A stretch of 44,765 bases of DNA, from positions 1-44,765 of the IMG/VR virus record IMGVR_UViG_3300020152_000001; one strand, given 5' to 3'. Of this stretch, positions 5,541 to 9,757 are shown in pieces. The DNA is from a virus. Under the pieces are notes generated by a model. It had not been told where the DNA came from. It was given only the letters and a program-made list of their open reading frames with translations, and did no database searches. Made by a program: the position numbers and the translations under genes. Each line of letters begins with the position of its first letter. Positions within the stretch are counted from its first letter, which is position 1.

Positions 5541-5618
5541 TGGCAAAGGTCTAGGGAATCGAACCCTACTAGAACGGTTTTGGAGACCGACGCCTAACAC
5601 CAGCCGAGCCCGACCAAT
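5541..5618 (-). tRNA. tRNA-Trp(CCA), degenerate acceptor stem
   Basis: Anticodon loop CTCCAAA in the context GGTCTCCAAAACC, typical of tRNA-Trp; T-arm TAGGG-TTCGATT-CCCTA; G discriminator and encoded CCA. The acceptor is ATTGGTC/GACCTTT, so pairs 2-71 and 3-70 are U-U mismatches, and pair 27-43 is also mismatched. It may be decaying, or corrected by editing or tolerated. Confidence 0.75.
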
Positions 5619-5999: not shown

Positions 6000-6377
6000 T
6001 TCCCGGGCCTCTCGACCCCAGAAGAAGAATTTGGAGCAGGGACGAGGGTTACACTCCCTCGCGAATTTCACCCGACCTCGCGGCCGGCCCCACGTAAATG
6101 CGCCGGGTTCTGTTGCCGGGCCCCGGCGGCCCCGCTCCGCGCCCTTAGGCCGCGCGAGCAAACTCTTGGTTGTCGTTCGCAGTTGAACGCCACCTGCCCC
6201 GCGCCTGTCGATACCTACTTCGCCCCCATCACCTACCCACCGAACACCCTCCACGGGTCCGGGGTCGTGAGGCCCCTGGCGGCCCCGAGTCACGAATGGG
6301 CCGGCCGATGAGTATGTGGTGGAGGCGGCGGGTGCCGCCCCCGCGTCCAGACACAAAGCCCTCGCTTTCGCAAGGAG
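6000..6377 (-). ncRNA. ssrA: tmRNA, circularly permuted two-piece form
   Basis: Acceptor piece first: GGACGCGGG, 7-nt loop, CCCGCC, GCCTCC, ACCA (ends at plus 6317), matching the classic tmRNA 3' end. After ~90 nt of spacer, the coding piece begins GGGGGCGAAG..ATCGACAGG (plus 6227 downward). GGGGGCG pairs with CGCCTCC to close the acceptor stem across the two pieces, which defines the permutation. The tag frame (plus 6180-6145) reads ANDNQEFARAA then TAA, with resume codon GCG. A CCCGGC-AACAGAA-CCCGGC-type pseudoknot region follows. Role: ribosome rescue and peptide tagging for proteolysis. Odd: the T-loop is GGCGGCA, not TTCRANN. The outer boundaries are approximate. Confidence 0.9.
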
Positions 6378-6383
6378 CCGTGA

Positions 6384-6411
6384 TGTAAGCATGCCTTACG
6401 CTTGATGTCAA
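6384..6411 (-). promoter_or_regulatory. Promoter of the tmRNA/tRNA block
   Basis: Minus strand TTGACA, 16 nt, CTTACA with G before it. The spacer carries AAGCGTAAG, the element shared with other promoters here. It overlaps the stop codon of the upstream gene and would start transcription near plus 6377, just ahead of the tmRNA acceptor piece. Confidence 0.75.
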
Positions 6412-9280: not shown

Positions 9281-9757
9281 AATATCTGGCTCTCAGCAGG
9301 TAGGGTATGTCGCCGAGACTTTCGCTCCGACGCCTTCAAACCGCCCCGCCGGAGACCTGACTAAACTCATCCGGACCCGCCCCACGTGCGGCCACTTACG
9401 CCACCGCCGTGATCTCTCCGGTTAAGACCCCCCACCTGCTTTTTGGTGGAGGAAGGCCGCTCTTGGCTCGACAGCGGGTCCGCGCCGTCGACTTCCGCCC
9501 TGCCATTGCCGCCCCGGCAGGGACCTGTAACTCATGGTGAGCAGGACCTAGAAGCTCGCCTGGGATTTCGTTCCCCGGGGTTAGAAACGCGGAAAATCTT
9601 CCCCGTTCTCCGTAGTCCTGGTGCCGCGTTGACACCCACCTAAAGGCCGGCGTTACCCGGCGAATTCATCGTCGCCTCCCTTGGTCGAGTATCGACAGCG
9701 GGGGTCTTACGCGTTCGTCACGCCGCCCCCGTCTATTCGGTAGCTCAGAGTAAGGGA
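9281..9757 (-). ncRNA. Candidate structured non-coding RNA, segment C
   Basis: About 480 nt between a promoter and tRNA-Tyr, without a credible gene. Stems seen: CCGGAGA/TCTCCGG closing 9349-9421; CCACC/GGTGG (9432-9449); CCCTGCC/GGCAGGG (9498-9522); GCCGG/CCGGC (9646-9661, minus-strand loop GTAACG); GTCGA/TCGAC (9684-9696); CGGGGG/CCCCCG (9699-9731) with inner GCGT/ACGC. It is the first RNA made from the 9758-9785 promoter. Confidence 0.6.

Follow-up and report, generated by a model that had tools for sequence, protein, structure and literature searches.

The window, a 44,765-nt stretch of a 132,731-bp virus record, very likely carries a working phage-encoded gene for a circularly permuted α-type tmRNA that has lost pseudoknot 1 (PK1). 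The gene lies on the minus strand from position 6375 to ~6102 and comprises, in order, an acceptor piece, an 89-nt spacer and a coding piece. A search with Rfam models matched it to both alpha_tmRNA (RF01849; 6351-6205, minus strand, 52.4 bits, E 7e-12, cut-off 50) and tmRNA_permuted (RF04321; 6369-6145, minus strand, 50.7 bits, E 4e-7, cut-off 47). Both scores are close to the threshold, and the RF01849 alignment covers the tRNA-like part only (model positions 85-169 of 355); as both exceed their cut-offs, a chance origin of the permuted tmRNA match is excluded. ARAGORN, run on the window, missed the gene. The first-pass annotation had placed a tmRNA at 6000-6377 and proposed a covariance search with the α-tmRNA model; that search finds the gene, in its tRNA-like part, while the lower end is at ~6102 and not at 6000. 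The RNA is of a known kind and very probably functional; what appears to be new is its PK1-less structure, which recurs in viruses.

The tmRNA is located among phage genes. It sits in a minus-strand tRNA gene cluster between scaffold/capsid and thymidylate synthase/portal genes, and the window also encodes a terminase. Among the phages matched by the portal gene are Lacusarx, EliS-L02, DSS3P8, RcXuper and the phiCbK group; the virus is one of an alphaproteobacterium. Three sister phages found through the capsid protein (L014, L015 and L016; 81-82% identical) have a syntenic tmRNA, that of L015 being the same as that of L016, in the order Ile-tmRNA-(Trp)-Met-Leu-Pro seen in the window, where a thymidylate synthase gene is present in addition and the Trp copy is degenerate. 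This copy (5541-5611, minus strand) is a tRNA-Trp-like sequence with a CCA anticodon and acceptor-stem mismatches that ARAGORN missed, and the sister phages have an intact tRNA-Trp at this place. A more distant capsid relative, L022 (70%), also carries a tmRNA; the remaining 18, mostly short contigs, gave no tmRNA match. A second RNA in the window, at 9536-9644 on the minus strand, is the Rhizobiales sRNA Atu_At1 (RF02496, 69.1 bits), also found in another IMG/VR contig (L410, 4696-4804, 94 bits), an example of phages carrying a bacterial sRNA family.

Table 1. Features of the tmRNA gene and its putative promoter in the window.
Feature	Position	Strand	Basis and remarks
Candidate sigma-70-like promoter, TTGACA-17 nt-TTACAT	6380..6411	-	Sequence; -10 ends 34 nt before GGAC
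Hairpin CCTTGC-GAAA-GCGAGG, 5' end of acceptor piece	6360..6375	-	Minimum-energy fold
P2 helix, 5' strand GCTTTGTGTCTG	6348..6359	-	12 bp including G-U; partner 6196-6207
Acceptor piece, 3' part	6317..6348	-	Rfam match and pairing
GGAC	6348-6345	-	Sequence
T arm GCGGG-GGCGGCA-CCCGC	6344-6328	-	T stem 5/5 bp; α-type 7-nt loop
Acceptor 3' strand CGCCTCC	6327-6321	-	Acceptor stem 7/7, G3.U70
ACCA	6320-6317	-	Sequence
Intervening spacer, 89 nt, 3' end TGAT	6228..6316	-	The two ends can base-pair
Coding piece 5' end: acceptor 5' strand GGGGGCG (6227-6221), then ATCGACAGG	6207..6227	-	
D-arm remnant to TCGAC, ending at 6207	within 6207..6227	-	
P2 helix, 3' strand CAGGCGCGGGGC	6196..6207	-	Fold
Linker, 15 nt, replacing PK1	6181..6195	-	Alignment; A at -4 from resume codon
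Tag frame GCG AAC GAC AAC CAA GAG TTT GCT CGC GCG GCC TAA (ANDNQEFARAA, stop)	6145..6180	-	
3' hairpin of coding piece, GCCGGG..CAACAG..CCCGGC, AACAG loop	6102..6127	-	

The DNA itself shows the architecture and its pairing, the tag frame and the missing PK1 (Table 1), and sequence comparison shows that the gene is conserved in related phages. All elements named in the first-pass annotation are present, on the minus strand, with the acceptor 3' end encoded ahead of the coding 5' end, and the pairing it had drawn between GGGGGCG and CGCCTCC is complete, with G.U at the third pair. The tag and its stop also read as described, but GCG, which had been taken as a separate resume codon before the tag, encodes the first alanine. 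Overall, the architecture supports the proposal of a phage-borne permuted α-type tmRNA that has what rescue and tagging require. In the minimum-energy fold of the precursor alone, the acceptor stem and T arm form, as do the 12-bp P2 with its G-U pairs and the 5' hairpin; a hairpin at the position equivalent to 6360-6375 is also part of the alpha_tmRNA model. The fold energy is modestly below that of shuffled sequences (z -1.6), which is not exceptional. Relative to L014, both sides have changed in two of the five T-stem pairs with pairing kept, and the same is true of four of the six pairs of the 3' hairpin relative to L014/L015. Counting against the preferred reading, a hairpin that might form, CGTTC-AACTGC-GAACG, would overlap with the resume codon. 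The tag ends in RAA rather than the usual LAA, which is unique among the tags compared, and degradation could therefore be weakened.

Judged by alignment, the absence of PK1 is an unusual feature, and one that the first-pass annotation did not mention. The gap between the D-arm TCGAC and the resume codon is 26 nt, compared with 60 nt in L014/L015; the phage isolates that were measured have 60-69 nt, and four bacterial tmRNAs (Paracoccus, Sinorhizobium, Bosea and Shinella; chromid- and plasmid-borne copies) have 64-66 nt. The missing stretch corresponds to the location of PK1, which is typical of this RNA class but dispensable for activity in E. coli, and leaves the P2 3' strand and 15 nt. For the window this observation comes from one metagenome contig, and no second copy of the ANDNQEFARAA tag was found in IMG/VR, from which near records may be left out. 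As the sister phages and L022 keep PK1, its loss took place in the lineage leading to the window, independently of a group of short viral forms. Gap lengths across viruses fall into three groups, 23-28 nt (at least 45 unique loci), 37-47 nt (at least 49) and 57-75 nt (at least 123); the 26-28-nt form occurs in at least about 40 unique viral loci other than the window. Nearly all of the short-form loci are virus records, mostly of a single, AT-rich type with tags such as ANDNFAPSGFALAA, whose gene and promoter style suggests marine phages. Among the matches listed, the acceptor was found in 43 of 45 short forms, where acceptor and T stems are perfect, and the A at -4 is kept in 45/45, as it is in the window; the equivalent base in E. 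coli, A86, sets the frame (PMC2481249). A short pattern (gap 16-34) that demands an α-type 5' end, and whose fit to bacteria was checked on four plasmid/chromid copies and the Rfam consensus, gave one match in 84,980 bacterial/archaeal species, SAR11 hosts aside. This match lies on NZKY01000164.1, a misbinned 8-kb contig with phage-like genes (desaturase, oxygenases) in an Opitutia MAG, and is the sole permuted tmRNA there. In named phages, blastn with short PK1-less forms matched only the ends of long forms, and a literature search for PK1-less phage tmRNAs found none. A natural, recurring PK1-less form fits mutant work in E. coli, in which, as cited in one paper, PK1 can be replaced with activity retained (PMC2481249, citing Tanner 2006). 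We tentatively suggest, as a possibility short of an expectation, that a minimal two-piece tmRNA without PK1 evolved repeatedly in phages, is unused by bacteria, and is kept for better ribosome rescue than the host tmRNA provides during infection, or for tagging with a different end.

Permuted tmRNAs are widespread in the relatives of this phage. RF04321 scored above its cut-off in 10/10 named phages tested, mostly portal-gene relatives (RpAliso, V10, RcXuper, DSS3P8, XM05, Cp1R7A-A1, EliS-L02, Lacusarx, CcrRogue and phiCbK), among which an annotated tmRNA was seen only in Lacusarx, a relative of the window phage (PMC5648845). The unannotated copies include those of phiCbK (JX163858.1, 104215-104533, minus strand, 71.4 bits), with the tag ANDNDVVAFASAREAIAA if the resume codon is the GCC before AATGAC, and CcrRogue (JX100814.1, 102546-102864, 88.2 bits); the 2012 genome paper reported that Rfam gave no RNA besides tRNAs (PMC3556154). 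The presence of the tmRNA in all ten named phages, and at the same place in the nearest relatives, indicates a regular, old accessory inherited within the phages. These data speak against a recent capture and do not support the proposal of the first-pass annotation that the phage took the architecture from its host; its statement that only one-piece phage tmRNAs are known is superseded by the two-piece forms published in 2022 with phage Melnitz, where unique two-piece phage tmRNAs stand at 53/133 (PMC9004378). The overlooked phiCbK copy brings the question of phage tmRNA into Caulobacter, in which Keiler and others demonstrated a working two-piece tmRNA in 2000, as cited in PMC9004378; deletion and tagging tests are therefore practical.

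A wider survey compared anchored sequence patterns with IMG/VR, the counts being of matches listed and hence lower bounds; a tag-and-D-arm pattern lacking the 5' anchor proved too permissive, and the anchored patterns took its place. At least 262 matches, at least 217 of them unique by linker and tag, were obtained, with the acceptor strand upstream (permuted) in 209 unique sequences. There are thus at least about 200 unique two-piece phage tmRNAs, mostly in IMG/VR contigs. In a set chosen solely by GGAC-N24-ACCA upstream, the seven acceptor pairs and G3.U70 are conserved in all 194 unique sequences among the matches listed, and every one of the four Watson-Crick types is seen at T-stem pairs 1 and 2. 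The surveyed sequences are related, so these counts are not independent events, yet the pairs are clearly kept. Of the 213 stop-terminated phage tags among the matches listed, 183 end in LAA. These data point to strong selection keeping phage tmRNA chargeable and in frame. Two copies were unusual in other respects. One phage tmRNA (L205, 4098) has a 31-residue tag, ANDNVAQPKFMKKRNTFARKVGFTKGMALAA, and plasmid pBSY19_1 (about 631 kb) of Bosea sp. RAC05 carries a permuted tmRNA with tag VNDNNAGYALAA, resume codon GTC and a 95-nt spacer, closer in length to phage copies than to other bacterial ones.

Pairing between the two ends of a spacer is stronger than between swapped partners, at a mean of -14.1 versus -6.7 kcal/mol across 164 phage spacers listed, and would present the two cleavage sites; 139 of these 164 end in TGAT. 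Pairing of a conserved spacer GTGGAG with the acceptor-end CTCCAC, seen in a few phages, was rejected (5 of 206 spacers listed, ~4 expected). Upstream of the gene, TTGAC-N17/18 with a -10 box ending 34-40 nt before GGAC also occurs in L014, L015, phiCbK, CcrRogue, XM05 and EliS-L02. This sigma-70-like promoter is weak in each single sequence (shuffle fraction 0.085 in the window), and no such site was found in the window under a stricter rule; the positional agreement across relatives is suggestive. A T4-type late promoter, TATAAATA, lies at a fixed distance upstream of 124 of 219 IMG/VR tmRNAs listed (about 4 expected), and 75 of 122 late-promoter copies listed also have a TTGACA-like -35 box 16-18 nt upstream (2.4 expected). 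The fusion of late promoter and -35 box suggests use both early and late. The Melnitz tmRNA itself has this fused form.

The role of the RNA is most likely rescue with host factors, as suggested by the lack of a phage SmpB, the alanine identity, and the retention of frame signal and tag. The precursor probably starts at the host-type promoter just upstream and would fold into one tRNA-like domain, from which host tRNA-processing enzymes may cut out the 89-nt spacer; if so, 6228-6316 would be absent from the mature RNA. The predicted products, an acceptor piece and a coding piece of about 59 and 126 nt, respectively, would be joined by the acceptor stem and P2. Host AlaRS would charge the RNA via G3.U70. 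Neither the window's virus record nor any of the 30 phage records checked yielded an SmpB; the host protein must therefore serve, presumably as with SsrA. The tmRNA may then enter ribosomes stalled on broken mRNA, resume at GCG and add (A)ANDNQEFARAA, and during infection the phage could benefit from additional rescue capacity or from capacity with a different tag. In mycobacteriophage Wildcat the tmRNA is the most highly expressed lytic gene (PMC7474061), making strong use in infection plausible by analogy.

Other explanations were considered for the reduced structure. The loss of PK1 and the low Rfam scores (51-52 bits, against 79-117 in the sister phages) might mark a tmRNA becoming a pseudogene, like the tRNA-Trp-like sequence nearby with its mismatched acceptor stem. 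Such decay is very unlikely given that every part of the tRNA-like domain is intact and includes two-sided pair changes, that the tag frame is open up to its stop, and that neither the A at -4 nor the 3' hairpin has been lost; moreover, aligned-base identity to L014 (175/240) is similar to the values for the neighbouring tRNAs, which are intact (59/77 to 63/76). It is similarly improbable that a GC-rich stretch collapsed during sequencing or assembly and that PK1 is missing for this reason from an ordinary permuted phage tmRNA. A single contig, with PK1 present in the sister phages, would be consistent with such an artefact, but P2 is 12 bp (with G-U) against about 6 bp in the sisters, the divergence consists of many substitutions across the whole region and not of a clean deletion, and the 26-28-nt form recurs in the other viral loci described above.

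A somewhat less remote, though still unlikely, explanation is that the phage RNA is a decoy or regulator that binds host SmpB and ribosomes, blunting or redirecting the host tmRNA by competition or through a less-degraded RAA tag. Inhibition of host tmRNA has been reported for the tRNA-like-domain-only RNA of phage DS6A (PMC4131195, PMC11915505), the authors of the Lacusarx study propose that host tagging is counteracted (PMC5648845), and the RAA end has no equal among the compared tags. A pure decoy, however, would not need the conserved tag frame, resume signal and 3' hairpin, and the predominance of LAA ends in phage tags also argues against this role. A working tmRNA that lost PK1 is the reading we prefer.

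The window tmRNA shares with alphaproteobacterial ssrA (RF01849, RF04321) its gene order, a 7-bp acceptor stem with G3.U70, the ACCA end, the α-type T loop, the P2 between pieces, the ANDN start of the tag, the A at -4 and a 3' hairpin with AACAG. It differs from these bacterial genes in lacking PK1 (gap of 26 versus 64-66 nt), in a tag that ends RAA and in a record with no smpB, and its stretch from stop to 3' hairpin is shorter than in the Rfam consensus. The tmRNAs of Melnitz, a Methylophilales phage, and related marine phages are likewise phage-borne, permuted and α-type with a complete tag (PMC9004378), but Melnitz has a PK1-length gap of 62, an adjacent glutamine riboswitch and a TATAAATA-type promoter, none of which is found in the window. 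The ten named phages, including Mesorhizobium phage Cp1R7A-A1, keep the long pre-resume stretch in those measured, and their tmRNAs are mostly unannotated and mostly located elsewhere in the genome than that of the window. The tmRNA of mycobacteriophage DS6A is also reduced but has no tag frame, whereas the window RNA keeps the frame and has lost PK1 only.
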